From a virus, in IMG/VR virus record IMGVR_UViG_3300036770_002992, positions 1 to 58,767 of that record: 58,767 nucleotides of DNA; one strand, written 5' to 3'. Of this stretch, positions 11,676 through 58,578 are shown in pieces. Under the pieces are notes generated by a model. That model saw only the letters and a program-made list of their open reading frames with translations. It was not told the DNA's origin and did no database searches. Numbering within the stretch: the stretch's first letter is position 1; each line of letters opens with the position of its first letter. Position numbers and translations under genes: made by a program.

Positions 11676-11712
11676 TTATACACTTTTCTACTAGTTAATT
11701 TCTGGGCGGTCC

Positions 11713-12108
11713 TCAAAAGATCTTTTCTTCTATAATTTCTGAATTCATAATTATATTAATTTCTTTTTTAATTCCAGACCTCACATCATTATACATGTAA
11801 ATTAGACGGGCGCACAAAATAAACTCTTCATTAAAATTTTTTAGACGCTCATGTTTTCTAATTAAATCTTCCAAGTCCCAAAGTTTTTTGTTTATTAATT
11901 TTAAATCATTATAATAAATATCTGGGACCTGAGCACCTTTTAATCTATTTCTTAGATAAACTAATTCTTTATTTATATTCTCTGCCTGAGAATTATTTTT
12001 ACAAAACTCTGATTTAATCTCAAGTATGGTAATTTTATCTATTAGTTCTCCAACAGAGACTGGAATGTTTATTATCACCAGCAGGCCGCTCTTTATCTTA
12101 ATATCCAA
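11713..12108 (-). CDS. DUF6165-like protein
   Basis: This encodes 131 residues. INIPVSVGELIDKITILEIK is the recognisable start of the DUF6165 family, followed by charged helices. Bacterial members sit in surface-polysaccharide and glycosyltransferase clusters. No biochemical activity is known to me. It overlaps the GT9-like gene upstream by 16 bases, consistent with joint function. Confidence 0.72.
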   Translation of the reverse strand: MDIKIKSGLLVIINIPVSVGELIDKITILEIKSEFCKNNSQAENINKELVYLRNRLKGAQVPDIYYNDLKLINKKLWDLEDLIRKHERLKNFNEEFILCARLIYMYNDVRSGIKKEINIIMNSEIIEEKIF

Positions 12109-13496: not shown

Positions 13497-13794
13497 TGTC
13501 TTCTCCCTCAGATATAAGTTCTAGCACCCTCGCCCAAGTTTCCTGGTTTTTATGAGAATTTCTCACATTGTCTAGTTTACCATCATTAAGGAATACACCG
13601 CCCCAAACTCCAAATGATTCTGTCTTTACACCATAGTCGAAACATTCTTTTATTACTGGGCAGGATAGGCATTGTCTATCTATTTGTCTAGCAACATCCT
13701 GGTCTAATTCATACTTATCAAAGTATAATTCTGTGTCTGTTCCAGCGCACAGCGCTTCACTTAGCCACATATTTAGCAGGAACTTTCCATCCAT
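13486..13794 (-). CDS. whiB: WhiB-family transcription factor
   Basis: This encodes 102 residues. Four cysteines (C16, C42, C45, C51) in the WhiB pattern C...CxxCxxxxxC would ligate a 4Fe-4S cluster. GVWGG (62-66) is the conserved G[VI]WGG turn. WhiB proteins bind sigma factors and act as redox-sensitive regulators; they occur almost only in Actinobacteria and their phages, so this gene is the strongest host clue. The short post-turn region lacks the strongly basic C-terminal tail typical of DNA-binding Wbl proteins, so it may act mainly through sigma factor contacts. Confidence 0.92.
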   Translation of the reverse strand: MDGKFLLNMWLSEALCAGTDTELYFDKYELDQDVARQIDRQCLSCPVIKECFDYGVKTESFGVWGGVFLNDGKLDNVRNSHKNQETWARVLELISEGEDIDL

Positions 13795-26131: not shown

Positions 26132-26321
26132 AAACTAATCTAGCGCTTCCGTCATGACCGTTTGGACAGGTCCAATAAACCTTTTTATTAGATGCATCAT
26201 ACATTCCCTTTGTCGATACCTCAAAACATCCCTGCTCTGAGCAGGAGAATGTTCCATCTATCTCTTTAAACTTTGTACTGGATTTACTGGGAGCCGAGAT
26301 AAAGGCTTTAGGGTCTATCAT
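26124..26321 (-). CDS. Small zinc-ribbon protein
   Basis: This encodes 65 residues. FSCSEQGC and WTCPNGHDG supply a Cys/Cys and Cys/His pair for one zinc. It lies next to recA with a four-base overlap. Function unknown. Confidence 0.68.
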   Translation of the reverse strand: MIDPKAFISAPSKSSTKFKEIDGTFSCSEQGCFEVSTKGMYDASNKKVYWTCPNGHDGSARLVYE

Positions 26322-27325
26322 ATCTTTTCATACACCAACTTCGTTAATTCTTCTTGCATGTCAAGGTCTTCTCTGGCTCTCGCTACCACATTAGCGCGAC
26401 CCTGAATTCTTTCTCCTAATACAGTATACCAGGCACCCCCGCGCTCAATAATTCCAAGCATTTCAGCGGTGTCTACTAGGTCTGCTACATGATCCACGCC
26501 AACATGGTCTCCCTGGAAATAGAAATCATACGACCCTGTAATAAATTGAGGTCCAGTTTTATTATAATCAATTGTCCAATTAACAGGCCTTCCCACTTTT
26601 TGTTCGATAAGTTTGTCCCCCACCGCAATCTTATCCTTAATAGATGAAGCCTCCGCCTCGCTTGACCACAATTTTACAATAGTGCTAGAGAAGAACTTGA
26701 CAGCCATTCCACCCGTAGGAATATGACTAGCGTGCATTGATCCAAATTGATTGCGTTGCTGGGAGATAAGGATAAGCAGGGTCTTTTCATTAACATAATT
26801 CAGCATTTTTACTGCATGAGTCATATCCTTAGCCTCTGCGCCGATTTGTTTTGTATCCTGTAGTTGCTTAAGTTCTGATCCATCTTTTTCAAAATAAATC
26901 GCTGGAAGTAACGCGGAGATAGAGTCTACAACGAGTAAATCTACCCCCGACTGAATAAGTTGTGTCCCAACATCAACCATTTCATTGATTGTTTTTGCTG
27001 GGGAGTAGATCAGGGATCGTGAGTCTACCCCTAGTCTCTCTGCCCACTCTGGGGAATACGATTGCTCTGAATCTATCCAGGCACATAATTTTCCCTCTTT
27101 CTGAGCCTCTGCAATAATTTGCAGGCAGAATGATGACTTGCCAGCACTTTTATTCCCCCAAATAAGGACCTGTCTGCCATATGCTAGCCCACCCTTTAAG
27201 GCAACATTTAAAGACAAACTTGGTGTCTTTTGTTTATGTATCTCTACTTCAGCGGCGCTTCCGACCATCTTTCTTATTTTTGGGTCTAGCCGTGATAGCA
27301 CTTCCTCTATCATCATGTCGCTCAT
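26318..27325 (-). CDS. recA: RecA-like recombinase
   Basis: This encodes 335 residues. Walker A is GNKSAGKSS at about 57-65 and Walker B LLVVDSISALLP at about 135. ISQQRNQFG and the GGMAVKFFSS segment match RecA loops. It forms filaments on single-stranded DNA for strand exchange and phage recombination-dependent replication. It is slightly shorter than host RecA (about 350). The C-terminal segment ends without the usual acidic tail. The start at ATG 27325 overlaps the upstream gene by 77 bases, but the N-terminal helix before Walker A is needed. Confidence 0.92.
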   Translation of the reverse strand: MSDMMIEEVLSRLDPKIRKMVGSAAEVEIHKQKTPSLSLNVALKGGLAYGRQVLIWGNKSAGKSSFCLQIIAEAQKEGKLCAWIDSEQSYSPEWAERLGVDSRSLIYSPAKTINEMVDVGTQLIQSGVDLLVVDSISALLPAIYFEKDGSELKQLQDTKQIGAEAKDMTHAVKMLNYVNEKTLLILISQQRNQFGSMHASHIPTGGMAVKFFSSTIVKLWSSEAEASSIKDKIAVGDKLIEQKVGRPVNWTIDYNKTGPQFITGSYDFYFQGDHVGVDHVADLVDTAEMLGIIERGGAWYTVLGERIQGRANVVARAREDLDMQEELTKLVYEKI

Positions 27326-35728: not shown

Positions 35729-36492
35729 TATGCAGTAAAGACCTTTCCGTCCACCACACAGGTATAGTCATGAATTTGAATCAACTGCATATGAGGATAA
35801 TCATTTACTACATGGGCAACGGCAAACCCTGCCTGCCAGTTCTTTTGAATTGAATAATCCATTTGATCTTCATCGCATAGATGACCAATTTCATAGCCTC
35901 TTAGTTCCTGACCGCTTAGATTGTATGTCTGAAAATACGCTCCCATACGATGCGAGTGGCCGCGTACAAGAGAAACGCCCCAATTATTAACATCATTACG
36001 AACCGATTCTCCAGAATGCTTTGAGATTGATTCCCCATGGTGTCCATACATATCTCCAAATCTTTTTACTGGAGGATCTTGATACAAGTGCCATTCAAAT
36101 CCCACTTTTGAGTATTCATAGAGGGAGTCTGGTGTTACTACATCTAGAAAGGCGGGTGCCTTTTTTGATAGATAGTCCCCGTGACGAGTCCAACCATGAT
36201 TCCCGTCATGAAAATGGCAATCAGCCTTCGGTACGATAGCCCTGATGTCTTGAAGAAATTTTCGTGTCCCATCTACGCCTCCATCATTAATTGATACCGA
36301 CATTTCTGCAGGCTTATCAGCAGCCCAGCGGCTAGTAGAATCAGCATCGTCAATATCCCCTAGTAAATCTACGGCATCTGGTTTCATCCATTTCATGACC
36401 TTAAGGAAAAGTTCTACCTTTCGTGGGTCATGACGAGGGAAATGTACATCTGAAACCATCATCCACTTAAGATCATTTTTTGCCTGTGTCAT
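35728..36492 (-). CDS. Calcineurin-like metallophosphoesterase
   Basis: This encodes 254 residues. The metal-binding series is complete: SDVHFPRHD (DxH), LLGDIDDAD (GDxxD), HFHDGNHGW (GNH) and LVRGHSHR (GHxH). Such enzymes cut phosphodiesters, for example in DNA repair (SbcD/Mre11) or nucleotide turnover. The substrate here is unknown. It lies between zinc-ribbon and HNH genes in the replication block. Confidence 0.88.
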   Translation of the reverse strand: MTQAKNDLKWMMVSDVHFPRHDPRKVELFLKVMKWMKPDAVDLLGDIDDADSTSRWAADKPAEMSVSINDGGVDGTRKFLQDIRAIVPKADCHFHDGNHGWTRHGDYLSKKAPAFLDVVTPDSLYEYSKVGFEWHLYQDPPVKRFGDMYGHHGESISKHSGESVRNDVNNWGVSLVRGHSHRMGAYFQTYNLSGQELRGYEIGHLCDEDQMDYSIQKNWQAGFAVAHVVNDYPHMQLIQIHDYTCVVDGKVFTA

Positions 36493-36937
36493 TATTCGCC
36501 TTTCGTCGGCATATTCTTGAGCAAAAATCCCATAAATGTTCTTTAATTACGGGAACGGTGTAAATCTTACCACACCAGCCACAAGTCTTGTCAACCTTTA
36601 TGGCTTTACATGCGGACCTACATTTTACTCTGTTCTTCATTATTGATGGAGATCCATAAAAATCCATCGAACAATACTTACATGTCTTTTTAATCCAAGA
36701 TGAATTAAGTTTATACATAGAAACAGTTTTCATGCCGTGCGCTTTATCATGTTCTTGGCGGTGGCATACAAAAAGGTTTTCTAACCTATTATCTGTTTTT
36801 ATTTCATTTATATGATGGACAGATTCATAGTCTTTTAACTTTCGACCCAAATATTTTTCCATTACCAATATGTGTTCATAATACAGGCCACGAATGGACT
36901 TTGGGTGGTCGGAAGGTATTAAATTATATCCAGCCAT
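36473..36937 (-). CDS. HNH homing-type endonuclease
   Basis: This encodes 154 residues. ESVHHINEIKTDNRLENLFV is the HNH core (His-His, Asn, Asn), with HRQEHDKAH adding the last His. The C-terminal part has zinc-finger pairs CKYC, CGWCG and CSRIC for DNA binding. Free-standing HNH genes of this type are mobile in phages. It overlaps the phosphoesterase start by 20 bases, suggesting insertion with little damage. Confidence 0.85.
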   Translation of the reverse strand: MAGYNLIPSDHPKSIRGLYYEHILVMEKYLGRKLKDYESVHHINEIKTDNRLENLFVCHRQEHDKAHGMKTVSMYKLNSSWIKKTCKYCSMDFYGSPSIMKNRVKCRSACKAIKVDKTCGWCGKIYTVPVIKEHLWDFCSRICRRKANNDTGKK

Positions 36938-43299: not shown

Positions 43300-44604
43300 T
43301 TAATCCTCATCCTCAAGGGTGTCGCCTTCTTCTAATACTGTAACAATAACATCTTCCAAGGTTTCTCCAGTAATTTCTAGACTAAATCTGTAATGTGGCG
43401 TTCCATTATTATTATACCGCAGTTCAAATAGATTCAGGTACTCTGCGTAATTGTACAGGCGGCTGTCCCTTTTCCCCTCGTCTAACACGTTTTGTATGGC
43501 TTTTATGATTTCTGCCAATCTTTCTTCCGCCATCCCAGAACTCACTTCTCCTGGAGAATTAAAATCAACAATTTCAAAAAACTCTTGCCCGTCCTCCGTA
43601 AGAATTTCATTATCTGGAACAAAATCTATTCCGTCATAATTAATTCCGCCCTCAATAAATTCCTTAGTTGAGTTGATTAATTGTTTGGTCAGCCTATTAA
43701 TCTCTCTGACAATTTTTTTGTCTAAATTAGGCATAGTTATTCGTTCTTTAGATTTTTCATTAATAGAATAATTTGCCCTGTTTTCTGCCTTGGGAATATT
43801 TATTTTTCTGTTACCACCCTTTACGATAGGGCTTGTTTCACCATCGGCTGGTTCATCCTCCTCTGCCCCACCATCATCACTTTCCTCCTCTTCTCCACCA
43901 TCATCCCCGTCGCCAGCGCCTCCATCACCTCCGCCGTCGCCTCCATCACCTCCGCCATCACCTCCGCCATTGCCCCCGTCTCCACCGTTGCCACCCCCTT
44001 CTCCTGGAGAAGGAGTCTTTTTAAACAATTTTTCTAATCTACTCTTCTCGTCTTTTGTAATTTTTCCATCTTTTACAGAATTAACAAGGGCATCTTTTTT
44101 AGTTTCACTTAATGTCTGAAAAAATGCTAATTTAGAGTCATCTGGTTTACCGCCAAAAATTTTACGGATAACGTCCCGATCATTTTTTTGTGTTAATTTG
44201 TTATATCCATCCTGGAATTTTTGCCATTTGCTCTTAGGCTTTTCTCCACCACCAGGCTTTTCTCCACCACCAGGCTTTTCTCCACCACCAGGCTTTTCTC
44301 CACCACCAGGCTTTTCTCCACCACCAGGCTTTTCTCCACCACCAGGCTTTTCATTATTTCCACCAGTTTGATTGCCACCAGATGGTGGCTTAAGGCCAGT
44401 TTCCTTTTTTTCCTGCTGCCCCTTTTTATTCAATGCTGAATTCAGTTTCTGGTTTATTCGATCTCTATCTTTAGGCCCCAAATCTCCCTTTTTATTTGCC
44501 AAAGATTGTGTTAATTGACGTAAGTCCTGGGCTTCTTTTTGTGTCAGGAATCCCTGACTTCTTGCATAATTAATTTTTTCTATCATTTTTTGCAAATCAG
44601 TCAT
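43300..44604 (-). CDS. Gly-rich repeat tail protein
   Basis: This encodes 434 residues. An N-terminal helical domain (DLQKMIEKINYARSQGFLTQ) precedes six tandem KPGGGE units at about residues 88-123. A second helical stretch follows, then a long Gly/Asp/Glu-rich low-complexity region (GGDGGNGGGDGGGDGGDGGG type) and a folded C-terminal domain. The flexible segments may act as linkers. It is a tail-module protein of unknown role, in the same strand string as the hub. Confidence 0.72.
   Translation of the reverse strand: MTDLQKMIEKINYARSQGFLTQKEAQDLRQLTQSLANKKGDLGPKDRDRINQKLNSALNKKGQQEKKETGLKPPSGGNQTGGNNEKPGGGEKPGGGEKPGGGEKPGGGEKPGGGEKPGGGEKPKSKWQKFQDGYNKLTQKNDRDVIRKIFGGKPDDSKLAFFQTLSETKKDALVNSVKDGKITKDEKSRLEKLFKKTPSPGEGGGNGGDGGNGGGDGGGDGGDGGGDGGAGDGDDGGEEEESDDGGAEEDEPADGETSPIVKGGNRKINIPKAENRANYSINEKSKERITMPNLDKKIVREINRLTKQLINSTKEFIEGGINYDGIDFVPDNEILTEDGQEFFEIVDFNSPGEVSSGMAEERLAEIIKAIQNVLDEGKRDSRLYNYAEYLNLFELRYNNNGTPHYRFSLEITGETLEDVIVTVLEEGDTLEDED
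44236..44343. repeat. 18-bp tandem repeat, six copies
   Basis: Six identical copies of AGGCTTTTCTCCACCACC (plus strand) encode the KPGGGE hexapeptides of the 43300..44604 gene on the minus strand. Perfect identity points to recent expansion. Copy number probably varies by slippage in steps of six residues without frameshift. Confidence 0.9.
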
Positions 44605-47600
44605 TACGATTCACCAACTTCCATCAAGGAAAGGGTCATTGAGGGTCCACTTGAGGTTACTGAATGAGCAATGGATGACACAACAAATGTTTTATCTCCA
44701 AATTTTTTATTATCCTGATAATATCCGCGAGATTTATCAAATATTTTTACTTTGTCCCCTAACTCTATAAGAGGATTTTCAAAAATCTCTAAGTTTAATT
44801 TCATTCTTTGCCTATTACAATACTTTGTAACCCATTGCATCATGGAGCGGGCCTGAGATAATGTTTGAATGTATTGACTATCTAATGAAAATGTTTGTTC
44901 TCCATAAATAGCAATGTTTCTCTCCCTCTCAGTTTGTCTTAGTTTGTCCTCTTCGCTACTTTCATATAAATCTTTTGCAGTAACAGTTCCTGTACTAAGT
45001 TCTTCCAGGCCGATACCGACAATATATAAAGGAAGTTTGGCGTCTGCACCTAATCTTATGGCTCCACCAGAAATGTTTGCTAGCACTAATTTTGCCCCAA
45101 AAGCGGTGGGCTCGTATTTTTTTACCAAATACTGTGGATTAATTTCTGAAATATCCAGCAATGCACTTGTTAATGCTGGTACAGTAAATCTAATATCATA
45201 TTCTCTTACCTGTCTTGCTAATTTAGCAAAATCATTGTAATAGAATAAAGCCTCACCTTTATCATCTTTAAAAAGGAATGATTTATTTACAGGAATAATT
45301 CCTTGCTCTAATCTTTTTTCAAACTGCCTATACCCTCTAAAGTACGACCCTGGATCATCTTCAAAAGGCTTGGCAGCGGCCATGATGTACTCATAAATAG
45401 CCTGAGAATCATTTCGAACAAACATACAGATATTCTTTGAGTCAATCCCTACTGCCTCACCGATCTTTTCTGTATAGGTTCCTATCTTGCTGTCTCCATA
45501 AAAGATCGTATATCTCATGGCATTTTGAAATTGTTGTATTTGAATTTCTAATTCAAACACGGGATCTAACTCTTGATTATCTGTTTTAATTACTTGAACA
45601 GAGGTGTCAAATACTGTAAAGCCTCCGACACTTGCTTTCAACAACACGGTGGGGCAGTAAACTTGCTTACCTTTATAATTTGCCAGTTTTACTCTATAGA
45701 ATCTTAAGTTTTTGACGATATCATCTTTTTCAGTAAAGTCTTTACCCGATCCAGCCGATTCTACTTCTAAGTAATACCCCTCCCCCTTGCTATTTATTCC
45801 AAACCCAATTCCAGCAATCGATGAGTTGCTGGCAGCGATGATTTTATCCTTTTTAATAATTTTTCTTGGAGAATAAAGACGCATTCTAGTAGAAATAACA
45901 TTGGGGGCGAATGGTAGAGTAATTTTTTGTCCATATATTGCTTTTTCTCCTTCTAGATATACAAAGGGGTCAAAGTCTTCTTCTGGAACTACCTTTCCAT
46001 CGCGCTCACTTGATGGAACATCTAAGTCAACTTGTTCATTGATCTTATTTAACTTATTTTTAGCGCTTGTAACTTTTCCATCTATGAGCGAATCCAAGGC
46101 TTCTTGGTCGCCTTTAGGACCAGTAGGTCCAGATATTTTTAAGAATCCTAGGTAGGTGTCTATAGAATCTTTTGGAATAGTTCCAAGAAATTTCTTTGCA
46201 GACTTATATCTTAATTTATCTGCAAAATTAAATTTAGTGGTGGCTTCTAGATTTCCTGGAACATTATAATTTGCACTCTCTCCAAGCACAAGTTTGAATC
46301 TTTTATTTTGTTCTACTCCGTCCGATTCTTCTATAACAGAATAGTGTCTTGCGGGAGTGCTATTGAACATACCCCTTCCGTCCCCAATAACTCTGTATTT
46401 ATACTTATCTCCCACTTTTTCAACCGTTCTAAATTTAACATCTATAACAAGGCCTCTAAAAGATAGAGAGTCCCCCGCCCCCAGGGATGAGATAAGTTCA
46501 AACTCTTCCTCTTTACTAAAAATAATTCTATGTCCATATACTCCGCTAGTTCCAGCAACATAAAAAAGTTTTCCCCTATATTTGATATATTCGCTATCTA
46601 ATAGAATAAATCCTTCATAATCTGGAATAGTAAATCCTTCATTGATATCCATATATATAATTAAGGACTGCCTTTCTTCGGCAGAATTTTTATCTCTATA
46701 TATTTGTCTGATGGCATTGTCTTCATTAAATGCAGTATATGTTTCTCCATCATAAAGATTTTTGAGCCTTGTCGGGAGGACATCTTTTAGAATATTCGCA
46801 GCCCCAAGGACTGCTGCGTTATCTTCTCCAGGCTCCCACAATATAGTAGTTCCATATCCAAAGTTAGAGAATGCCAGGGAGTTCATTGGAAATTGATCTA
46901 AGGCTAATTGATTATATAGATCTTTCTTCGTATCGGAAAGTGTGTTTGCTAGAGGAGATCTTCTTGGGCCATAATAATGGTAAATAATATCCCCATCTGT
47001 TATTGGATTAATCTTTTCTTCAGTTAATGAGGAAACATTAGCCGTATAATCGGATATATAGTCGTACTCATTATCTTCTCCCTCCACCACATCTTCATCC
47101 ATGACAAACCAAAAGTCTGTTCCAGGAGATTGTAGCGGAACTGGATGATCTTCAGAAACCCAGAATCCATAATAATTACTGTAGGTCCACTCTGTTTCAT
47201 ACGGGAGTGCGTCGGTGTTTCCACCATAGAAAAACCAGTTATTGTTATACCAAACATATTTCGTAGGATCTGGGTTTATATTTCCCTGTCCAGGCTCAGA
47301 GTCTTCAGAAGAAACATTCTCAGTAAGCCTTTCTTTTGTCAAAACATTAAGTTTTCCAGCAACGTCATAAAATATGGAGCATTGTGTCGCTATTGCTATA
47401 TTTTCTAAAACCTCCGCCACCGTCTGTTCTTTTTTACAAAAGAAATTTTTTATTATTGTATCTTCGTTATCATTTTCTTTTGAATCAGATGACTTTTTAA
47501 ATTCTAATCCTGTTACCCCCACATTATCCAGTATCATAAGAATGATGGCAGACATCGCGGCAAATGATGAAATCATAAAATCTGGCGCAGACAGTTGTCT

Positions 47601-48866
47601 TAAATATTTCATCCCATCTTCTAGTTCTACTGATACTGAATAGTCTTCTCCAATATTCCATTGATTAGAAAACATTACTCCCATAGGTATGTTAAATGTT
47701 TCATCTAAGTCTGGAACGTATACTTTTTGATAAAAATTAAATTTTACATCCTCATTTAACATCTCTGAGGTACTTAGAATATTTGCAAATAAAAATTGCC
47801 CATCTTCATTAGATAAAGATATATTACCTGTTCCCGACACTACAGTACCTACAGGTAAGCCAAAGTTAGTGGAATCACCAATAGATGACGCAAGATTAAA
47901 TGATTCTACATACTCTGTAATATCAGCCTCTAGCCTAGGAGATATTTCTATTAGTTCTAGAGGTGAGGACTTAAGATTCACCGGAAATTTTTCACCATTC
48001 TGTTTAATGGGTGGTGGCACGACGGGGGCCATTGACTCTACTCTAAACCTAATACCTTTTATTTTTTTAAAATGGGTTGGCTCTGATGAAATTAATTCAT
48101 CAAAATCATCCATTCTAGAAACTGTTTTAGACCATGTTCCGTTTCTTTGATAGTATAGATTTAACTCCCCTCCAATAAAATCATCACTAGACGTTGCTAC
48201 ATCATTTGGGTCCACTAGGCGAGAAAAATTGGCTGGAACATTATATATCTCAGTCCAGTTACCTCCGACCAAGATGTCTACAGAGAATGAAGATGGTATT
48301 GACACATGGTTTTGAACTTTAATAACAATTTTATTGCACATGACATTTTTTTCATATACAACGAATGGATTAACATCTGATATTCTTCCAAATCCATTAG
48401 CCACCCCGATCATTTTTCTTGTTCCGTCAAAGCCCAAAACCTTACCAGAATTGTAATAATCATATGTTCTATTTTCTGATACTGGATAAAATCTTGCGGA
48501 TGCCGTGGATAAATTAGACACTTTTATATTAAATACGCTATCGGAGAACACCGCCCCAGGATGCTTTTGAGTAAAAACAATTCCTGGGTCTGGTCTATTT
48601 GGTTTAAATACAGACGATAGTTGTGAGTAAAATTCTGATTTAGGATCTACCTTAGTATCTTTATCATCGAAAACAATTCTATTCTTTCCGCTGATAATAT
48701 TAGAACTGTTTGATGAGTATTGAGTTTCGTCCCCGTTTGATTTGTAGAGCCCGTATCTTTCAATAACAGAATATTTATTCATATTCCATTCAGCAACTAC
48801 AAGGTGCTCGCTATTTATTCTGTCTGCGTTTTTATAAAGGTTGCGAATGTCAGTATAATTTAACAC
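44604..48866 (-). CDS. Tail hub / baseplate-type minor tail protein
   Basis: This encodes 1420 residues from GTG 48866, which follows GGAGG and overlaps the upstream stop (TAGTG); a longer frame to 48899 is less likely. A beta-rich N-terminal half, then ALATQCSIFYD-type segments and a late QARSMMQWVTKYCNRQRMKL stretch followed by ELGDKVKIFDKSRGYYQ, match the tail-associated hub proteins of siphoviruses. It would sit at the tail tip and link to the fibre. No lysin domain was noticed in it. Confidence 0.75.
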   Translation of the reverse strand: MLNYTDIRNLYKNADRINSEHLVVAEWNMNKYSVIERYGLYKSNGDETQYSSNSSNIISGKNRIVFDDKDTKVDPKSEFYSQLSSVFKPNRPDPGIVFTQKHPGAVFSDSVFNIKVSNLSTASARFYPVSENRTYDYYNSGKVLGFDGTRKMIGVANGFGRISDVNPFVVYEKNVMCNKIVIKVQNHVSIPSSFSVDILVGGNWTEIYNVPANFSRLVDPNDVATSSDDFIGGELNLYYQRNGTWSKTVSRMDDFDELISSEPTHFKKIKGIRFRVESMAPVVPPPIKQNGEKFPVNLKSSPLELIEISPRLEADITEYVESFNLASSIGDSTNFGLPVGTVVSGTGNISLSNEDGQFLFANILSTSEMLNEDVKFNFYQKVYVPDLDETFNIPMGVMFSNQWNIGEDYSVSVELEDGMKYLRQLSAPDFMISSFAAMSAIILMILDNVGVTGLEFKKSSDSKENDNEDTIIKNFFCKKEQTVAEVLENIAIATQCSIFYDVAGKLNVLTKERLTENVSSEDSEPGQGNINPDPTKYVWYNNNWFFYGGNTDALPYETEWTYSNYYGFWVSEDHPVPLQSPGTDFWFVMDEDVVEGEDNEYDYISDYTANVSSLTEEKINPITDGDIIYHYYGPRRSPLANTLSDTKKDLYNQLALDQFPMNSLAFSNFGYGTTILWEPGEDNAAVLGAANILKDVLPTRLKNLYDGETYTAFNEDNAIRQIYRDKNSAEERQSLIIYMDINEGFTIPDYEGFILLDSEYIKYRGKLFYVAGTSGVYGHRIIFSKEEEFELISSLGAGDSLSFRGLVIDVKFRTVEKVGDKYKYRVIGDGRGMFNSTPARHYSVIEESDGVEQNKRFKLVLGESANYNVPGNLEATTKFNFADKLRYKSAKKFLGTIPKDSIDTYLGFLKISGPTGPKGDQEALDSLIDGKVTSAKNKLNKINEQVDLDVPSSERDGKVVPEEDFDPFVYLEGEKAIYGQKITLPFAPNVISTRMRLYSPRKIIKKDKIIAASNSSIAGIGFGINSKGEGYYLEVESAGSGKDFTEKDDIVKNLRFYRVKLANYKGKQVYCPTVLLKASVGGFTVFDTSVQVIKTDNQELDPVFELEIQIQQFQNAMRYTIFYGDSKIGTYTEKIGEAVGIDSKNICMFVRNDSQAIYEYIMAAAKPFEDDPGSYFRGYRQFEKRLEQGIIPVNKSFLFKDDKGEALFYYNDFAKLARQVREYDIRFTVPALTSALLDISEINPQYLVKKYEPTAFGAKLVLANISGGAIRLGADAKLPLYIVGIGLEELSTGTVTAKDLYESSEEDKLRQTERERNIAIYGEQTFSLDSQYIQTLSQARSMMQWVTKYCNRQRMKLNLEIFENPLIELGDKVKIFDKSRGYYQDNKKFGDKTFVVSSIAHSVTSSGPSMTLSLMEVGES

Positions 48867-49405
48867 TATACCTCCACCAAAGTCATGGAGATGTCCCACA
48901 AGTCGTGCGTCGGCCCTCGCTTTGTAACGACATAACTAAAATCTTCAAAAAATACATTGTATGATTCTAGTGAATACCTAAGAGGAACCGACGAGGCTGA
49001 CTCGGGTGTGTCGTAAACCAAAGTGAGATAGAAACTTTCCGTATGATCTTTATGCCAATCAAGCATCTGTTGAGAGGAGGCCCATCCTGTTGTCGTCCCG
49101 CCGAATCTCGTTTCTGATAATTCTGCGCGGGCAGAAGGTAAATCCTGCCAAGATACTGAGAATGTCTTCTTATCCGCCACATGATAAGATCTCATTCTTC
49201 CATTGATCATTCTTTTCTTGTATTCTATTCTTTCTATTGCTATCTGTAACTCTGATCTACTATCGTCGGTAAGATATAAAAAGTCTGTGTCTACAGTTCC
49301 TAGATTCCATTGACCAGCAGCAGCATTAACTGCTACTGGAGCATTTTCTGAAAATATCATTAATGCTGGGCGGGTCCATATTCTTTGCAATGTTGTGGTA
49401 GACAC
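48866..49405 (-). CDS. Distal tail protein-like
   Basis: This encodes 179 residues, directly after the tape measure gene as in most siphoviruses. It is beta-rich (FLYLTDDSRSELQIAIERIE, KKTFSVSWQDLPS, ESFYLTLVYDTPES) and ends with HDLWDISMTLVEV, a tail-tube-like strand. Distal tail proteins connect the tube to the hub. Identification is by order and shape. Confidence 0.7.
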   Translation of the reverse strand: MSTTTLQRIWTRPALMIFSENAPVAVNAAAGQWNLGTVDTDFLYLTDDSRSELQIAIERIEYKKRMINGRMRSYHVADKKTFSVSWQDLPSARAELSETRFGGTTTGWASSQQMLDWHKDHTESFYLTLVYDTPESASSVPLRYSLESYNVFFEDFSYVVTKRGPTHDLWDISMTLVEV

Positions 49406-52400
49406 TATATGCTCCTACTATGATTTCTTCTGTTGTTTGCAGAGTTAATCATACTAACAACTTTATTAGCAATTGCATTGGCTCCCTTGCCACCAGCACC
49501 ATTAATGACAACTTTAACATTAGTTTTGTTACTTGATGATGAAGAATTGCCACCGTATGTTGTGTTACTTAGACCTACAGATGTATCTGCCATTTCCGGC
49601 ATACTGAATGCTGGCATGGGGGCGGAGCCAACCATCCCCCCATTTGCAAATCGTGCAGGTTGAATTGATGAACCCTGGGACGGATTGAGTGAGCCAGAGT
49701 TAATTTGATCCATAAACCCCTTACCATATTTAGCAACAGAAGATGCCTTTATAACATATTCACCGTTTGAAAGCATCGCTGGAATCATATCAGACCTGGG
49801 TCCTCCTGGACCTGAAATAAATCCACCCATAGCATACCCCTTAGGGGGGCCAGCCCATTGGAATCTTGGGGTACCGTTCGATCTATTGGTATTATTCCAG
49901 CCATTATTTACAGATGTAGTTCTTACTCCAGTCGCTGGAGTACTTGCTTCTATAATTGTGTCATTTCCTGCATAAATTGAAGTATGCCCGCCACTAGCAC
50001 CGTCTGTCTTAAAGTATAAGACATCTCCAAGAGAAAGTCCAGATATTTTTCCATTCTTAAGACCGGACACTCTTTTTGTTAATTCAGACGCTTGGGTATG
50101 AGAGTATGCGGTTAGAACATTTTTTCCGATTGCCTGATTCCAGGCCCAGGCCGTAAGTTTAGAACAGTCCCATGAATCTGGTGGCCGTGCTCCTGGAGGA
50201 GTGTTGACATAAGGCTTACCTAATTGATTTCTGGCATAACTTACTGCCTTACTAGCAGCACCACCACCCGTCTGTCCGGCATCATTACTTCCACCGTTTG
50301 ATCCGCCAGTAAGTGATACTATTTGTCTCCACCAGTTAGGATTATTGTCGAACTCATTTATTCCTCTGCGATATCCATCGGAGCCGCCTGGGAATACACC
50401 GGAAACTGGATGTACATTCCATCCTCCCCAAGGGGTTTGAGTGCTTCCTCCATGATTTTTTGGATCTTTCCACATAGCATTAGCAATTTTAGAATTATAG
50501 ATTGCATCAAACATCCTAGACTTACTGAAATCAATTTTTTCTCCACCGACTTCTTTATGCCAGTAATCATTAATTTGCCATAGGCCCCAATCTATCCCCT
50601 TGCTACCCTTAGCCCAGTTATCATTCGTAGCGGTTCTTTTTCCACTAGATTCTCCCATAACCACACCATAGGCTGTTCTTACATCATCTTTAGTCTTCCA
50701 TCCAGAGCCATAGATTAATTTAACTAAGTTGAAGCCTTTAATAAATTCATCTTGATAATCTTTCGGGTCAAGTGTTACGTCCCTGCTCCCAGGTTGAGAT
50801 GGGTTATCTCTTGGATTATTTCTGTCCTGATTTGGCTGACCTTTATTAAGTAAGGACAAAATTCCGGGAAGACCTCTAACTGGACGGATATATGATTGTA
50901 TTGAATCTCCTACAGGATTTTCAGGGTTTTTCTTGCCAGTATTTTTGCCACCTTTATTTTCATTATTATTTGTATTTTCATTGCCACCCTCAGTCCAGGC
51001 TTCGTTGGCATTCTTAACAAATGTTGATATTGGGTACAACGTATCGTTTCTTCTCCCAATGGCCCAATCTTTATGGTTTATAATTCTTCCTTCAAATCCC
51101 GGCCATCCAGCCCAATCTCTAATCGCTGCAGTCATTCTTGCTATTGCATTAAATTGTCCAGAGGTAAAATCTTGAGTTTTTCCAGCAGAAGATACCTCCA
51201 TCTGCCATGAAACTGAGTTTGGGTGGCCCGCAATATCAATAATCTCTTTAGCAGATTCAGTTTCGCCCTTCATATACTTAGTTGTTCCCTCGCCGTGCCC
51301 CATTCCAGTATTTCCTGCAGCAAGAGTGTGGGCCACCCCACTCTTTCCTATCCAAGATTGGACTACTGGCTTACCCATCCAATCTTTAGCAAAAGAGTTA
51401 AGTTCCGCCTGCTGACTTACCCCTGGTTGTAAAGCGGTGTGATGCATTGTAACCAATTGAGGTTTGCCTTTAGACCATGAATTATATTGATTCCATCCGG
51501 CGTAGAATTGGTGGCCACCATTGGGGAAGAATTTTTTAATTGATTCTACTAATCCGCCCTCGGCCATTCTTATCGGACTAGGTAGATTTCCTCTGAATGT
51601 AGCATTCGCGTCGGAGGCTGCGCGGGAAGTAGATACGGGGCCACCATAGGCAAATTTTCCGGCGTTTATGGTATCCATCATATCCTTGCCATATTTATTT
51701 ACGCTAGAGGCTTGAACGACATATTCACCATTAGAAAGCATGGCAGGAACTTCATCAGACTTGGGTCCTCCTGGGCCAGAGACTTTTCCTCCGCCCATCA
51801 TCATTAGACGATTATTTTTAATGTATCCACCTGTTGCCGCCCCTAATGTTGATGGATTGCCGTCACGATCTTCAGTACCGTCGTAATTTCGTCCTGATTC
51901 AGGGATATTTATATCCCCGTTTAATGTCACTTGCTGTGCGTCTACGTTCATCTGTTGGACTGTATCAGCAAGGTCATCACCGACCCCAGTATCTCCAACA
52001 TTGTCTACAACGTAAGGGGTTGACGGTAAATTAAGACCTAATTCTTTAAGGATATTTTCTGCAGCAAGACTTGCCGACCTGCCCCTTGCATCAAATGACA
52101 GGGCCCCAGCCTTAATTGCTGCCTGGATTGCACTAACTCCGCCGCGATAATAAATTTCTTCAATTCTAAGTTTTAACATCTCTTTTCTTGCATCTAAATA
52201 TGGCTTTGATTTAAGTTCAGAGTACTCCTGCGAATATTTTCTTTCTGCTGAAGTAGCATTAGTCCTATAATCTTTTTCCATTGTTTCAATCTTTTTGAGT
52301 TCGTCATTTTTTGCTTGCAATATTTTTTCTTTATTTTCTTCTGATCTTTCTATCATATCGTCATAGCGTTTCATCTGAGCGTCATGAGCCTCTTGTTCTT

Positions 52401-55400
52401 GATCCATTAGATCCTGAACGCCCTTAATTCTATCTTCCATCATTTGCTCATACTCTTCTTGCTCTTCTTGTTTTTGCTCACGGACCTCATCAATTGCCTC
52501 TAACTCAAGGTCTCTTCTCTCTTCAATTCCTTCTATCATTTGATCATAGGAGAATTCTTGAGCATCCGCAGACATTTGCTCTCGCTCTTGAAGGAATCCA
52601 AAAACATCTCCAGAAGCAAGTTTTTCTAAAGCGCCAAAAGCAGTTTTTCTTTGTTGTGCAAAGAATGACTCAGCCTTTTGATTCTTTTCAAGGGATTTAA
52701 TGTATGCGTCGGAAGATTTTTCAATTGCGTTACGTCTGTCGTCCAGTCGATCCATTTCTTCATCAAAACTTCTTCTTCTTGCGTCCATCTCTTCCTGCAT
52801 ACCCTCAATGGAATCTTCGCGGGCTTTTTGCTCTACCTCAAATGCGTCCTGGGCGGACTCTTTTAGATCTTGATATATTTTAATCCTGTCATCTACGGCG
52901 TTCATATAGTTTTCTGCATTAGTGTTGATAGTATCTCTTTGTTCTTGAGCAAATTGATCAATCATGTCAAAGTAAGCCTGCTCAGACTCTATTCTTAGAA
53001 GTTTGGTAGCGTCTGCCAATGATTTAGCGCTAACTACCGCTCTTCCAAGGGCAATGTCAAATTCTCCGGCCTCATTAGTTGCTTTATCTAAAGATACCCC
53101 CGCTATTGCCATCTGAATTGCTACTATTTTTTCTTCCTGGGTGTCTATTGTGCCACCAATTCTGTCCCATTCTTGACCGTAGGCATTTTTAAGATAATCT
53201 GTTATTTTTTCCATGGCAGAGGCCTGGTTGCCTTCGTCTAAATTATTTATGATATCTGTAAATTCTTGTAAACCTTCTATTGCCGCAGTAGGATCTTGCT
53301 GATATGCCATGACTAAAGAATCCATAACCCCAGATATCATTTCTGGATTTACTTCCATAAGATCTTGAATTTGATCATTAATGCCATCAATCGCATTAGA
53401 TATATCATAGAGTCTCTGCTGGTCCTCTGGAGCCATTATTTGCGCTGGTGGCCCATACGTTCCAGCGACAGGAGAGTATGTAATCCTTGACTCTATTTCA
53501 GTTCTTTCATTTATTAAACTCTGCCTTTCATCTTCTAGAGTTTGAAGAATGGTCTTACCAGTTTTTCCAAATTTTGCTTCAGATGGCTGGAACTGAGATA
53601 TTATGTTGTCTACAGCATCCTTTACTGTCAACGACTCGTCTAGAAATCCTTGAGTGACTGCCTCTGTAAATGCTTTTCCTCCAGCCATACCAGCCTCTGC
53701 TGCGATAGCCTCTATTGATGCTTTAGCATTTTCTGCACTCATTCCAGAAATAATCATATTGCTATACGCCATCGATAATTCTTGAGCACCAGCACCCGCG
53801 CTCAAATATTTTATTTTCTCTATTAATGGACCGTAATCTTCTTTTACTGCCTCTCTAAGAGCGCTATCGATACCCCTAAGATCTTCTGAAACATTAGATA
53901 ATCTGTTATTTTCTAAAATATCCGAAACGTTGGCAATAGTTTCGCCAAAGTATTCCGCACTCTTTACTGGATCATTAAATGCTGAAATGGCTCTTTCTCT
54001 TGCCTCTTCAGCGGCGTTACGATACATCATAAATCCAGTAATGGCAGCAGTTATACCTAGTCCAGCAGCAATTCCTATAGGCCCTCCTGCAACACTAAGA
54101 AGTCTACTGGCTCCTAGAAGAGTCGCCCCCATCTTTCCTCCGCCTGCCGCTAATCCTGCTGCAGCGCCCTGTCCTGCCATTCTACCCCCTGCTAGGCCCC
54201 CCGCAGATGCAATGCTAGAAGCACGCTGGGCTAGAGCAGGATTCGCTGCCAATCTTGCAGCATTTGTTTGTCCAAGTTTCCCGCCCAAACTTCTCATCCC
54301 TAAGAAGTTAGTGAAAGTATTTTTTCCTATCCCCATATTCATCATCATGGTGGCCGTCATTAGAGCGGTGGTGAATAGTCCAAGTTTCATTGCGGCATCT
54401 GCAGACGCTCCGCCCATCATTGAAATACTTGAGGTAACCATGGACAAGGCAAACATTGCATTCATTGCGCCTGCACCACGCATTCCGCCTTGAGCCTGAT
54501 TTCTTGCAGAACCTATTGCGGCGGCAGGACCAGTAGGACCAATAGGTTTATTTAGTCCAGGGGCAGCAGCGGATGCGCGTCTTTGTGCGGCCTTTGCCTC
54601 TTCTTGTTCTGCCCTTAATTGGGCTTGATCTGCGTCTGCAATAGCCTGCTTCTTTTGATTAATAATGTTTTGAATTCTTAATTCTTTGTCCGCAGCCGCT
54701 TTTATTTCTGATTGAAGGCGACGCTTTTCCTCCATCATTTGAACAAGAGTAATTTCACCTCTTGCATATCTTGATTGAATAGAATTTAATTCTACTTCTG
54801 CTCTTACACGATTAGCGGTATGCTTAAGTTGCATTTCTTTAAGTTTAAGTATTGATTGATCTGCCTGTGCTATTTTTTGAGCATTTGATATTGACTCTAT
54901 CCCGCCGCCTGTTTTTATTACATTACGACCTTGCGTTACATTATTTAGGCCGCGCTGTAGCCCATTAAGAACCCCCTGACCAACGTTTCTACCACCAGAC
55001 TCACCTATTTTATCTGCTTCCTTTGATGGAGATGTAGATCTAGTTACTTCATCAAAACCTCTATCTAAACTAATAAGATACTCATCTAATGCTTGCCGTG
55101 CGATTCTTCTTACTTCTGGAGTAGATCCTAGCGCTCCTCCTCCTAGCGGCATTATGCTTCCAGAGAGTCTTTCGGTTCCTAGATGTGCGCGAGTATATCC
55201 TCCAGATGTTGGAACTCCAAGATACTGTGCTGAAGTTTTTACTCTATTCTGGAAAGATCTAGCCTCCCCAGTTCTATCGCTGTATTGAGTTCTTCTTGTT
55301 ATTTCTTTTGTTACTGGGTCAATTACGACGGCTGGAATACGAACATTTCCGCCGCTCAAAATTTGTGAAGTTGTTGGGGTAAGAAGTTTTTGCATAGCCA

Positions 55401-57906
55401 AAGCCATTTTTGGATCTGAAATTGAAGAAACTATCGCATCTATTCTAGGTCTTGCTCTTTCCATAACTTGAGATATATGCGTAACGTCTTCTCCTGCATC
55501 TATCATTTCTGTAGCAGTTAGCCTTAAGGCAGAAACTACTTGCTCCGTTATTGGCTGCATTTCTGTTGAGAGTCTTCCCAGAGCCTTATCTGTTAATCTT
55601 GTTTTTCTTTCAATTGCTACTGCGGTCATAGCAGAAGCCCTCATTGATTTTTCAAACATGTCCCCCGCATCAAAAAAGTCTCTTGACATACCGAAGCCAC
55701 TAGGAGTATTTCCTGGAGCAAACATTGTGTATGGCGCAAGAACGCTTGACTGTCCGCCTGTTAAAGATAGTGTTCCAGTTTGAAACCCTGGCAAAGTTCC
55801 GCGATTCATCTGTAATAGAACTGGGCCATATTTTTCAGTTGCCTCGCGGTTTACAATGAATTCACCAGGCTCAAGCATGGCTGGGATCTTGTCCCCGCGA
55901 CCAGATCCTGGAACAAATTCTGGGTTAGTAGACCCAGCCTGTCGGCGGATAGGAGTCTGACCTCTTGCCCCAGGCAAAGCGCCAGGAATAAATAATGCGG
56001 GATTGGCGGCAGTAAGTCTTCTTAAAGATTGCTCGTATGAACTTAAAACACCCGACAACCTCCTTAATGCGACCTCTTGTGTATCAAATGATTTCGTGAG
56101 ATTATCTACGCCAAGTTTTGCAGCCATAACATCTTGGTTGAGAAGTTCAAATTTTTCGACCCTGACCCCAGCAATTCTTGCACCAAGCCTTGTCATCATC
56201 ATGCCGAATTTAATGCCATTGGCAATGAGGTTTCCAAAAAGACCGACCATCATAATAATAGGGCCTGCAAGAGCGGCAATTGCTACACCATACTTAGCAA
56301 AATCTTTTACTGGGCCAGGAAGCGCCTGGAAAAATGAGGTCAGAGTCTTCATGCCGCTACCGATAAATTCAAAAATGGGTATTAGAGTTTCAGTCAGGGT
56401 TTGACCTATCGGCATAATCGCATTCTTAAGATCTTCCAGAGTTCTCTGGAATCTCATGGCAGTAGATTCGGTAAGAGTCCTAAGTTCGTCGTTTGCCACC
56501 TTAGCCAGATCTGCCGATGATTTAGAGGCTAGTTCTACGACAGATTCAGTCTGTGAGCCTGCCCGACCAATGTTGTCGAATAGGGCGGTAATTCTTGCAA
56601 ACTGGTATCTACCAAAAATTTGCTCAATGACTCTTGATCTTCCAAAACTATCTAGATTACCCAAGGCTTCTTGCATAGCATAAATTGTGGGCATTAGTTG
56701 CCCCTTATTTGCCTCAACAATTCCAACTAAGTCAATTCCAAATTGTTTAGCAACATCTGACGCCTGCTTGGTTGGATTAATCAGGGCAGAGAGGCCAGAC
56801 TTTAATGCGTTAGCCGCTTCTGCCGCAGGAATACCTCCTTCACGCATAGCGACTAGAAGTGTCGCAAGATCCTTTACGTCTCCGCCAAGACTTCTTACAA
56901 CAGGGCCAACCTTAGGAATGGCTGTAGCAAGATCTTCTAGTGTTGCGGATGTTTGGTTTTCTACAGCATTAAGGAAGTTAATAGATTCCGCAAGTTCATT
57001 AGTATTCATCCTGAATGCTGATTGCAATGAAAGAGTTGCTTTCATTGCCTCTTGCCTATCAACTTCACCAAGAACGGCTAACCTTGTGGTTTGCTGTACT
57101 GATGAAATAAGGGCCTCCCCCTCTTTACCAGTTGCAGCAATGTCTGCAGCCAAAGCCGCAGTATCTTTTGCAGCAATACCATATGTGCTTGAAATGTCAT
57201 AGGCTAATTGCTTGACTTGTTCCCGCATACGATTAGTAGATTCACTTATAGCATTACCAAGGTCAGCGCCGTACACCTTTTGGAATCTTGTTAATTCTTT
57301 ATCAAGTTCGCGGAATTGCTTTGAAGCGACAGCAGTAAAAAGCATTAATGGAACGGTAAACCCAACCATCAATTGCCGACCAGCCCATTGGGTGTTTTTA
57401 CCCCAATTAAGCATGGCCGTTGCTCCACCATTCATTAATTGATTAAATACAGCAAATCTTTGTGAGGCAAGGGCTGCGGCACTACTAGCAGCGTTGATAC
57501 TCTGCGGAGTCATCATCATGGCTTGCCCGCCACCCACGGGGACAGCGATAGATTGCTGATATTTTACTTGCTGTTCGGCAAGGCGTCGCATCATACTATT
57601 TTGACGGGTATATCCAGTAATAGCCTCGCGGAAATAATCACGCATAGTGAGGCGATTGGCTGCAAGTTGTTTGCCAAATGTTTCTACTGCATTTGTTGCC
57701 TTTATCGTAGATGTAGTAAATCCGCCAGCCTGCCCGACCCCCGCCGCGAATGTTGCGGCAAGACTTCTTTGAGCAGTAAGAGCAGATTTATCAAGAGTGT
57801 TAAACGCAGCAGTAAGAGTACCGATCTGAGCAGTAAGAACCTTAATCTGCGCTTGGGCCGCAGAAAGATTTGCATTGTAAGTGATAGTGGAGTGAATATT
57901 AGCCAA
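49405..57906 (-). CDS. Tape measure protein with three cell-wall hydrolase domains
   Basis: This encodes 2833 residues. The N-terminal 600 residues have the phage tape measure core (FRELDKELTRFQKVYG ... TRLAVLGEVDRQEAMKATL) and hydrophobic segments. A long coiled coil lies at about 1640-1900. Three IPAMLxxGEFIV-type repeats occur at about 672, 2052 and 2705. An amidase_2-like domain spans about 2140-2300 (VTMHHTALQPG, IINHKDW), a lysozyme/transglycosylase-like domain about 2385-2500 (YGVVMGESSGKR, WGLWQINDYW) and an NlpC/P60 domain about 2550-2680 (DCSKLTAWAW, GHTSIYAG). It sets tail length and opens the cell wall at injection. The length implies a tail of roughly 400 nm, using the usual 0.15 nm per residue. 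Confidence 0.93.
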   Translation of the reverse strand: MANIHSTITYNANLSAAQAQIKVLTAQIGTLTAAFNTLDKSALTAQRSLAATFAAGVGQAGGFTTSTIKATNAVETFGKQLAANRLTMRDYFREAITGYTRQNSMMRRLAEQQVKYQQSIAVPVGGGQAMMMTPQSINAASSAAALASQRFAVFNQLMNGGATAMLNWGKNTQWAGRQLMVGFTVPLMLFTAVASKQFRELDKELTRFQKVYGADLGNAISESTNRMREQVKQLAYDISSTYGIAAKDTAALAADIAATGKEGEALISSVQQTTRLAVLGEVDRQEAMKATLSLQSAFRMNTNELAESINFLNAVENQTSATLEDLATAIPKVGPVVRSLGGDVKDLATLLVAMREGGIPAAEAANALKSGLSALINPTKQASDVAKQFGIDLVGIVEANKGQLMPTIYAMQEALGNLDSFGRSRVIEQIFGRYQFARITALFDNIGRAGSQTESVVELASKSSADLAKVANDELRTLTESTAMRFQRTLEDLKNAIMPIGQTLTETLIPIFEFIGSGMKTLTSFFQALPGPVKDFAKYGVAIAALAGPIIMMVGLFGNLIANGIKFGMMMTRLGARIAGVRVEKFELLNQDVMAAKLGVDNLTKSFDTQEVALRRLSGVLSSYEQSLRRLTAANPALFIPGALPGARGQTPIRRQAGSTNPEFVPGSGRGDKIPAMLEPGEFIVNREATEKYGPVLLQMNRGTLPGFQTGTLSLTGGQSSVLAPYTMFAPGNTPSGFGMSRDFFDAGDMFEKSMRASAMTAVAIERKTRLTDKALGRLSTEMQPITEQVVSALRLTATEMIDAGEDVTHISQVMERARPRIDAIVSSISDPKMALAMQKLLTPTTSQILSGGNVRIPAVVIDPVTKEITRRTQYSDRTGEARSFQNRVKTSAQYLGVPTSGGYTRAHLGTERLSGSIMPLGGGALGSTPEVRRIARQALDEYLISLDRGFDEVTRSTSPSKEADKIGESGGRNVGQGVLNGLQRGLNNVTQGRNVIKTGGGIESISNAQKIAQADQSILKLKEMQLKHTANRVRAEVELNSIQSRYARGEITLVQMMEEKRRLQSEIKAAADKELRIQNIINQKKQAIADADQAQLRAEQEEAKAAQRRASAAAPGLNKPIGPTGPAAAIGSARNQAQGGMRGAGAMNAMFALSMVTSSISMMGGASADAAMKLGLFTTALMTATMMMNMGIGKNTFTNFLGMRSLGGKLGQTNAARLAANPALAQRASSIASAGGLAGGRMAGQGAAAGLAAGGGKMGATLLGASRLLSVAGGPIGIAAGLGITAAITGFMMYRNAAEEARERAISAFNDPVKSAEYFGETIANVSDILENNRLSNVSEDLRGIDSALREAVKEDYGPLIEKIKYLSAGAGAQELSMAYSNMIISGMSAENAKASIEAIAAEAGMAGGKAFTEAVTQGFLDESLTVKDAVDNIISQFQPSEAKFGKTGKTILQTLEDERQSLINERTEIESRITYSPVAGTYGPPAQIMAPEDQQRLYDISNAIDGINDQIQDLMEVNPEMISGVMDSLVMAYQQDPTAAIEGLQEFTDIINNLDEGNQASAMEKITDYLKNAYGQEWDRIGGTIDTQEEKIVAIQMAIAGVSLDKATNEAGEFDIALGRAVVSAKSLADATKLLRIESEQAYFDMIDQFAQEQRDTINTNAENYMNAVDDRIKIYQDLKESAQDAFEVEQKAREDSIEGMQEEMDARRRSFDEEMDRLDDRRNAIEKSSDAYIKSLEKNQKAESFFAQQRKTAFGALEKLASGDVFGFLQEREQMSADAQEFSYDQMIEGIEERRDLELEAIDEVREQKQEEQEEYEQMMEDRIKGVQDLMDQEQEAHDAQMKRYDDMIERSEENKEKILQAKNDELKKIETMEKDYRTNATSAERKYSQEYSELKSKPYLDARKEMLKLRIEEIYYRGGVSAIQAAIKAGALSFDARGRSASLAAENILKELGLNLPSTPYVVDNVGDTGVGDDLADTVQQMNVDAQQVTLNGDINIPESGRNYDGTEDRDGNPSTLGAATGGYIKNNRLMMMGGGKVSGPGGPKSDEVPAMLSNGEYVVQASSVNKYGKDMMDTINAGKFAYGGPVSTSRAASDANATFRGNLPSPIRMAEGGLVESIKKFFPNGGHQFYAGWNQYNSWSKGKPQLVTMHHTALQPGVSQQAELNSFAKDWMGKPVVQSWIGKSGVAHTLAAGNTGMGHGEGTTKYMKGETESAKEIIDIAGHPNSVSWQMEVSSAGKTQDFTSGQFNAIARMTAAIRDWAGWPGFEGRIINHKDWAIGRRNDTLYPISTFVKNANEAWTEGGNENTNNNENKGGKNTGKKNPENPVGDSIQSYIRPVRGLPGILSLLNKGQPNQDRNNPRDNPSQPGSRDVTLDPKDYQDEFIKGFNLVKLIYGSGWKTKDDVRTAYGVVMGESSGKRTATNDNWAKGSKGIDWGLWQINDYWHKEVGGEKIDFSKSRMFDAIYNSKIANAMWKDPKNHGGSTQTPWGGWNVHPVSGVFPGGSDGYRRGINEFDNNPNWWRQIVSLTGGSNGGSNDAGQTGGGAASKAVSYARNQLGKPYVNTPPGARPPDSWDCSKLTAWAWNQAIGKNVLTAYSHTQASELTKRVSGLKNGKISGLSLGDVLYFKTDGASGGHTSIYAGNDTIIEASTPATGVRTTSVNNGWNNTNRSNGTPRFQWAGPPKGYAMGGFISGPGGPRSDMIPAMLSNGEYVIKASSVAKYGKGFMDQINSGSLNPSQGSSIQPARFANGGMVGSAPMPAFSMPEMADTSVGLSNTTYGGNSSSSSNKTNVKVVINGAGGKGANAIANKVVSMINSANNRRNHSRSI

Positions 57907-58578
57907 GTTCGGTTCCCTCCGCTAATTCATATATAACTCCCATATCTGGGGTTAGACCCTGCTCTATTGCTCCAGCCATATTTTTATCACCAGTCAGTCT
58001 AGCGACTGCCCTAGCCTGAATTTCTTCTATGCTAGGAATTAGGGATTCCTCCTCTGGTTCTTCAGAATTATCGTCAATGTCTATGCCCTGAAGAGCGGCC
58101 ATAAACTTTTGTCTTCTTCTTTCCGCCTCATAAATTGCTTTTAATGTGGCGGCAAGTTCTGGCATAGATAGCGACGATTCAAGTTCCTCGTAGTCCTTCC
58201 AATGGCCCAGGAGAAATACTTCTCCTAGCATAGAGGCAAGGTCTAGATCCTCCCAGCGAGTTCCTGAGCCGTCGCCACTAGGTTTGGGTCATTCAACTTA
58301 ATATCAGCGGCTACTTCAAGAATCTTGTACATGGTCTGAAGATCTACTGCTTCTTCAAGTTCTTCTGTTGTTTCTGCTAGATCTGGAGCAAATTGACGGA
58401 AAGCAATTGATGTGCATTTGATGAGAACATCCAGGAATTCATCTTCGTTTTGAACCTCTGAAGCCTTCTGCCACTCCTTCATGACCTCGCGTAGATTCTT
58501 GAGGTTAAGGGGTTTTACTGTAATGTTTCGACCATCAAGAAGTTCTAATTCTATGGTTTCGTAGACCTTGGTTGCCAT
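57899..58578 (-). CDS. Tail assembly chaperone, -1 frameshift fusion product
   Basis: Joining the 58243..58578 frame to the 57899 frame by a -1 shift at CCCAAAC (58288-58282) gives a 226-residue product: 99 residues, then 127 more. Without the shift only the short form is made. The second frame reads PSGDGSGTRWEDLDLASMLG immediately after the slip site, the conserved WEDLDLA boundary of actinophage GT proteins, and has no ribosome binding site of its own at ATG 58231. The fusion is needed for tail assembly in known phages. It precedes the tape measure with an eight-base overlap. Confidence 0.85.
58243..58578 (-). CDS. Tail assembly chaperone, short form (G)
   Basis: This encodes 111 residues. 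KVYETIELELLDGRNITVKP, followed by a helical bundle (NLKNLREVMKEWQKASEV), is typical of siphovirus tail assembly chaperones. AAAGGATG precedes the start at 58578 and a TATAAT -10-like box lies at 58610-58605. It is upstream of the slip site and partly decoded into the longer fusion. Confidence 0.82.
   Translation of the reverse strand: MATKVYETIELELLDGRNITVKPLNLKNLREVMKEWQKASEVQNEDEFLDVLIKCTSIAFRQFAPDLAETTEELEEAVDLQTMYKILEVAADIKLNDPNLVATAQELAGRI
58282..58288 (-). promoter_or_regulatory. Programmed -1 frameshift slippery site CCCAAAC
   Basis: The heptamer C CCA AAC is a canonical X XXY YYZ slip sequence in the frame of the short chaperone. It lies about 12 codons before the short-form stop. 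The -1 frame is open from a TGA just before the site to the 57899 stop. Confidence 0.88.

Follow-up and report, generated by a model that had tools for sequence, protein, structure and literature searches.

Three predicted peptidoglycan hydrolase domains in an apparently exchangeable slot of a probable actinophage tape measure protein

The tape measure gene and its neighbourhood

The window considered here is the whole analysed stretch of 58,767 nucleotides from the viral record IMGVR_UViG_3300036770_002992. Its longest ORF, 49405-57906 on the minus strand, is a complete open frame and begins with a TTG that is preceded by GGAGGGAACCGAAC, with a ribosome-binding-like GGAGG upstream. The family matches of its product (PhageMin_Tail at 1.3e-29 in Pfam and phrog_10030 at 1.6e-114 in PHROGs) and its place as the longest tail gene, between the chaperone-position genes and the minor tail genes, identify it from sequence as a tailed-phage tape measure protein. 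The gene order, consisting of two small genes, the tape measure, a small tail gene and a large minor tail protein, is that of the Streptomyces phages Wofford and Anedea.

58243..58578 (-): small ORF in the tail assembly chaperone position, placed as in Wofford; phrog_10504, a family with no assigned function
57899..58231 (-): small ORF in the pre-tape-measure position, following the Wofford gene order; phrog_10474, a family with no assigned function
49405..57906 (-): tape measure protein ORF, 2833 aa, TTG start
56611..57210 (-): PhageMin_Tail domain, aa 233-432, 104 bits
49408..49686 (-): conserved C-terminal tail, aa 2741-2833, ending RRNHSRSI, from an alignment
48866..49405 (-): small tail-region protein downstream of the tape measure, phrog_1194, placed as the Wofford small minor tail protein
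44604..48899 (-): large minor tail protein, phrog_10359 (minor tail protein), 1.4e-69
13594..13767 (-): WhiB-like gene, an indicator of an actinobacterial host, 48.8 bits against a cut-off of 23.6

WhiB genes are regarded as an indicator of actinophages (PMC10202952). The GC content of the window is 40%, and the nearest cultured tape measures are held by Streptomyces phages. The host is thus likely to be a low-GC aquatic actinobacterium. A contig search found one 36% relative in a cyanobacterial MAG, which is set aside as host evidence because the WhiB gene points to actinobacteria.

Elsewhere in the window are genes for a SpoU-type RNA methylase (19744-20304) and RecA with its C-terminal domain (26318-27325), as well as an HNH endonuclease gene adjoining the tail genes (36473-36937). 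A run of minus-strand genes (7046-12842) starts with a gene (7046-8056) for a GDP-mannose dehydratase-like sugar epimerase, and the two adjoining ORFs that were scanned have no Pfam match. No endolysin was recognised among the ORFs scanned, which are part of those in the window, itself a contig fragment.

Three serial domains near the C-terminus

Near the C-terminus of the tape measure, Pfam detects Amidase_2 (aa 2147-2288, 29 bits), SLT_3 (aa 2405-2482, 47 bits) and NLPC_P60 (aa 2572-2669, 35.2 bits) in series, each scoring over its curated cut-off (26, 27 and 23 bits, respectively). The modules that hold them are somewhat longer.

50977..51549 (-): Amidase_2 module, aa 2120-2310, with H2155, E2237, H2278, R2286 and D2288; from Pfam, residue alignment and Foldseek
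50302..50754 (-): SLT_3 lysozyme-like module, aa 2385-2535, with E2419 and D2439; from Pfam, alignment and a c-type lysozyme match
49837..50274 (-): NlpC/P60 module, aa 2545-2690, with C2581, H2641 and E2653; from Pfam, alignment and PDB profile matches

In the amidase module, the zinc ligands H2155, H2278 and D2288 and the catalytic E2237 are invariant in all five related modules aligned; the roles of these residues we take to be those established for AmpD and T7 lysozyme. R2286 stands where AmpD has a lysine, and each of the five aligned modules has a basic residue there (R/K). The SLT_3 module carries E2419, D2439, Q2444 and N2446 in a c-lysozyme-like frame of the form E-S-S-G ... D-W-G-x-x-Q-x-N. 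Its profile finds c-type lysozymes in the PDB, and the match takes in the Glu as well as the D-Y/W-G-x-x-Q-x-N stretch. The NlpC/P60 module keeps C2581 and H2641, with E2653 located twelve residues past the histidine, an arrangement compatible with a Cys-His-Glu triad such as that of RipA. Its profile matches in the PDB include CwlO, RipA and the hub-hydrolase CD1368.

The residues expected for catalysis are thus in place in the alignments of all three domains, and none was found missing at the sequence level. A sequence-only reading of this locus had described a tape measure with three serial peptidoglycan hydrolase domains that would cut amide, glycosidic and peptide bonds, and both the domain scores and the residues bear this out as a prediction. 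Its label of transglycosylase for the middle domain is less secure. Pfam's own name for SLT_3 is "lysozyme like domain", and given the c-type lysozyme match, the module could equally be a muramidase or a transglycosylase; the same bond would be cut either way.

Structure prediction, which the same reading had suggested as a check, recovers one fold of the three. The model of the block of three domains is poor overall (mean pLDDT 38); it was built from an alignment that excludes SLT relatives, as mixed-module alignments put the SLT rows in the wrong place. The amidase core alone is modelled with some confidence (pLDDT 50-83), and Foldseek returns LysC, AmpD, AmiE and T7 lysozyme as its top PDB matches, with probabilities of 1.00 to 0.99 for LysC, AmpD and AmiE. 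An amidase fold is therefore recovered in the predicted structure, but the SLT and NlpC parts fall below pLDDT 50 and lack a confident model, and their catalytic geometry is judged from sequence.

Linkers bracketing the slot

The motif PAMLSNGEYVVxASSVxKYG occurs at aa 2054 and again at aa 2709 of the window tape measure, on either side of the three domains, and a diverged copy is present much earlier in the protein, at aa 675.

55807..55914 (-): linker copy 1, diverged (PAMLEPGEFIVNREATEKYG), about aa 665-700, from the motif search
51637..51792 (-): linker 2 (PAMLSNGEYVVQASSVNKYGK at aa 2054), bounding the slot on its upstream side, from the motif and as a DNA island between otherwise divergent relatives
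49687..49833 (-): linker 3 (PAMLSNGEYVIKASSVAKYGK at aa 2709), bounding the slot on its downstream side, from the motif and DNA comparison

Fourteen related tape measures have the motif at both places and were compared on that basis (the window, L003, L005, L007, L009, L010, L013, L015, L016, L032, L038, L097, L122 and L156). All 24 hydrolase domains detected in them fall between linkers 2 and 3. From these comparisons, the three domains of the window appear to occupy an exchangeable slot bracketed by two conserved linkers.

A looser form of the motif, PAxLSxGEYVVxAxxVxKYG, recurs in tape measures associated with unrelated hosts, including Gordonia, Rhizobium, Brevundimonas, Vibrio and Shewanella (loci L148-L223, hits H73-H97). 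Judged by these sequences, the linker motif is widespread in tape measures, and hence not specific to the hydrolase slot.

Slot contents among relatives

A query with the first 638 aa of the protein finds 80 relatives in IMG/VR. The nearest of them share 77-96% identity with it across the first ~640 aa, yet their full tape measures run from 2243 to 3858 aa. Used as a single-sequence query, the C-terminal block recovers almost no relatives from IMG/VR. A tblastn search of 50,697 phage records yields no match to the amidase or the SLT module and weak matches only to the NlpC/P60 module. The slots of the 14 tape measures hold the following domains.

Amidase, SLT and NlpC: the window
Amidase and NlpC: L003
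Amidase and SLT: L009, L010, L038
SLT and NlpC: L013, L032, L097
M15 and SLT: L122
M15: L005, L007, L016
NlpC: L015, L156

M15 is assigned on three grounds: Pfam matches in L005 and L016 that fall below the threshold (18-19 bits against a cut-off of 25), the motifs NHPSGTAxDIN and MHxQIS, and, for L007 and L122, a profile built from these M15 modules. Wherever two or more of amidase, SLT and NlpC share a slot, they occur in that order. L018 has an NlpC domain in the region corresponding to the slot, and the more distant relatives L021, L027, L037 and L045 have M23 in their C-terminal region. The cassette in the slot ranges from about 210 to 1200 residues.

Close relatives thus carry one or two hydrolases in the slot. 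The number of domains therefore appears to vary by module exchange, and need not report a thick or highly cross-linked wall or resting host cells, which the sequence-only reading had taken it to suggest; nothing in the sequence supports that step. That reading had also called the full set unusual and proposed surveying other tape measures for it. The survey reveals varied hydrolase sets in the relatives, and the exact combination in the window only: no second case was found among the IMG/VR relatives examined, a sample biased by recruitment through the N-terminus or through module patterns, and an undercount, as a six-frame Amidase_2 scan missed the L003 amidase that hmmscan found. A 2017 review gives two as the maximum number of lytic domains in virion-associated lysins (PMC5380687). 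Three is no ceiling, however. The 3728-aa tape measure of L124 (275-11458) carries the linker motif five times and has two NlpC/P60 and two SLT_3 domains, so that its hydrolase domains number at least four, with a fifth suspected from a QHESGW stretch, and would apparently represent two slots in tandem. The set in the window is unusual, yet on these domain assignments it is one point in a range of at least one to four hydrolase modules.

Some slots also contain blocks of a different kind. A block of ~300 aa in L003 (12256-13188), L005 (16937-17809) and L007 (19487-20359) has kinase-like spacing of K..E, DxxxxN and D[FV]G motifs. It has no Pfam or PDB match and a weak match to phrog_3162, a family with no assigned function, and its AlphaFold2 model has a pLDDT of 35 and no usable fold. 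Blocks in L041 (15917-17989) and L097 (7577-9529) contain SHEMGHAYD and AHEGGHALD, and these HExxH-type motifs make a zinc metalloprotease possible. Searches of the relatives' slot blocks against PHROGs, Pfam and the PDB gave no usable annotation. In the tape measure of Gordonia phage Neville (L228, 1713-8546), two stretches match Beta-lactamase2 (PF13354, 7.8e-28), a serine beta-lactamase-like domain.

Exchange of cassettes at the linkers

In pairs of relatives that differ in the last module, DNA identity is near background (about 25%) upstream of linker 3, climbs within 20 codons upstream of it and is 63-100% from roughly ten codons ahead of it onward. Linker 2 is a conserved DNA island of about 40-50 codons with divergent flanks. 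L016 and L038 are 77% identical over their first 800 aa and 96% over their last 143 aa, with M15 in the slot of the one and amidase plus SLT in that of the other. Between L009 and L038 the identity is about 97%, save for a stretch of ~110 residues where the slot begins. As DNA identity rises sharply at the linkers in spite of differing modules, exchange of cassettes is the likely origin of this pattern. The comparison is ungapped and does not tell recombination apart from functional constraint acting on the linkers, which could add to the signal, but an exchange of modules at the linkers or close to them offers the simplest explanation. A survey of protein-fragment shuffling in phages describes mosaic signals in tape measures, with a recent case unconfirmed (PMC10684548), and the pairs L016/L038, L003/L032 and L005/L016 look like the recent cases sought there.

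Comparison with known systems

The N-terminal ~650 aa of the Wofford and Anedea tape measures (Stanwilliamsviridae/Boydwoodruffvirinae) are 32-35% identical to the window protein. These proteins share PhageMin_Tail, the gene order and a C-terminal hydrolase with it, but have a single M23 peptidase, and no SNGEYVV box in them matched the search pattern. Motif 3 in the tape measure of mycobacteriophage TM4 (motifs 1 and 2 are those of Barnyard, Che9c and others) is likewise a hydrolase module inside an actinophage tape measure. Its activity has been shown by experiment, and it helps infection of stationary-phase cells (PMC1796659). It is one tested motif, likened in that paper to other host protein families, and there is no set of amidase, glycosidase and peptidase.

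CwlP/YomI of SP-beta resembles the window protein in being a very long tail protein with two distinct hydrolase domains, a muramidase and a DD-endopeptidase, both active (PMC5380687). It differs in having two domains, an M23-type endopeptidase in place of NlpC/P60, no amidase and a Bacillus host. Enterococcal tape measures also have a C-terminal glycosidase, a lytic transglycosylase, but one hydrolase type only (n=97; PMC10194240). Tape-measure-derived effectors of the Sle1 type join a conserved, coiled N-terminus to functional domains at the C-terminus that can be interchanged (PMC13277306); these are effectors of bacterial injection systems and not a phage wall-opening block, and the likeness is one of domain layout.

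Alternative explanations

One alternative sees the three domains as adapted to a wall that is particularly thick, cross-linked or resting, such that entry needs all three bonds cut. Three chemically different cuts are indeed predicted, and TM4 provides a precedent in stationary-phase cells (PMC1796659), but one or two hydrolases suffice in close relatives, and the WhiB gene and 40% GC suggest a low-GC actinobacterium, for which a special wall is not indicated; we regard this account as rather improbable. About equally hard to favour is the idea that one or more modules have decayed and serve, without catalysis, in wall binding or targeting. The amidase is just 3 bits over its Pfam cut-off and has Arg in place of Lys, but none of the five amidases deviates at the zinc ligands or the Glu, the Lys position is R or K in every one, and the SLT and NlpC residues are intact. 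An assembly chimera of metagenome reads is highly improbable: although the contig is metagenome-derived and the combination is found on no second contig, a single 2833-aa frame of even GC runs through all joints, a linker lies at either end, and in relatives these modules are joined in pairs with their order kept.

A broader reading would make the slot a general cargo bay that also accepts domains bound for release into the host along with the DNA; the three hydrolases would then be its wall-opening version. The kinase-like motif spacing in L003, L005 and L007, the HExxH motifs in L041 and L097, and the tape-measure-derived effectors known in actinobacterial contractile systems (PMC13277306) are consistent with it. 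These blocks, however, have no Pfam or PDB match, the kinase-like block is poorly modelled, and the window itself holds none of them, so that this reading is best considered unlikely. Equally doubtful, if more specific, is the proposal that recombination loads the slot with both wall-cutting sets and kinase- or metalloprotease-like enzymes that enter the cell, following a logic like that of polymorphic toxins.

Proposed role

The preferred interpretation, to which we assign a probability of roughly 0.7, is that the three domains form the peptidoglycan-opening end of an actinophage tape measure and are carried in an exchangeable slot; it is from the directly observed domains, residues, slot position, variable contents and DNA-identity breakpoints that we infer hydrolytic activity, a location at the tail tip and a role in entry. 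Under this model, the N-terminal two thirds of the protein would act as the ruler, and near the C-terminus the linkers with their SNGEYVV boxes would enclose independent hydrolase modules joined by low-complexity stretches. Docking of the tail would expel the tape measure, and the modules would fold or become exposed at the tip, where they may cut the wall locally: the amidase at the amide bond, SLT_3 in the glycan strand and NlpC/P60 in the stem peptide. That three types of bond would be cut during entry is a reasonable reading with precedents in TM4 (PMC1796659) and CwlP. The resulting opening would provide a passage for the tube and the DNA. Recombination between phages in linker DNA would then generate new combinations of modules.

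How a ruler protein tolerates a cassette of such variable size is a puzzle that this model raises, and tail length would show the answer. If the model is correct, the tape measures of these actinophages would be modular lysins in which a wall-opening kit is reshuffled between conserved linkers, and nature would have provided in them a library of enzymes for entry through actinobacterial walls.
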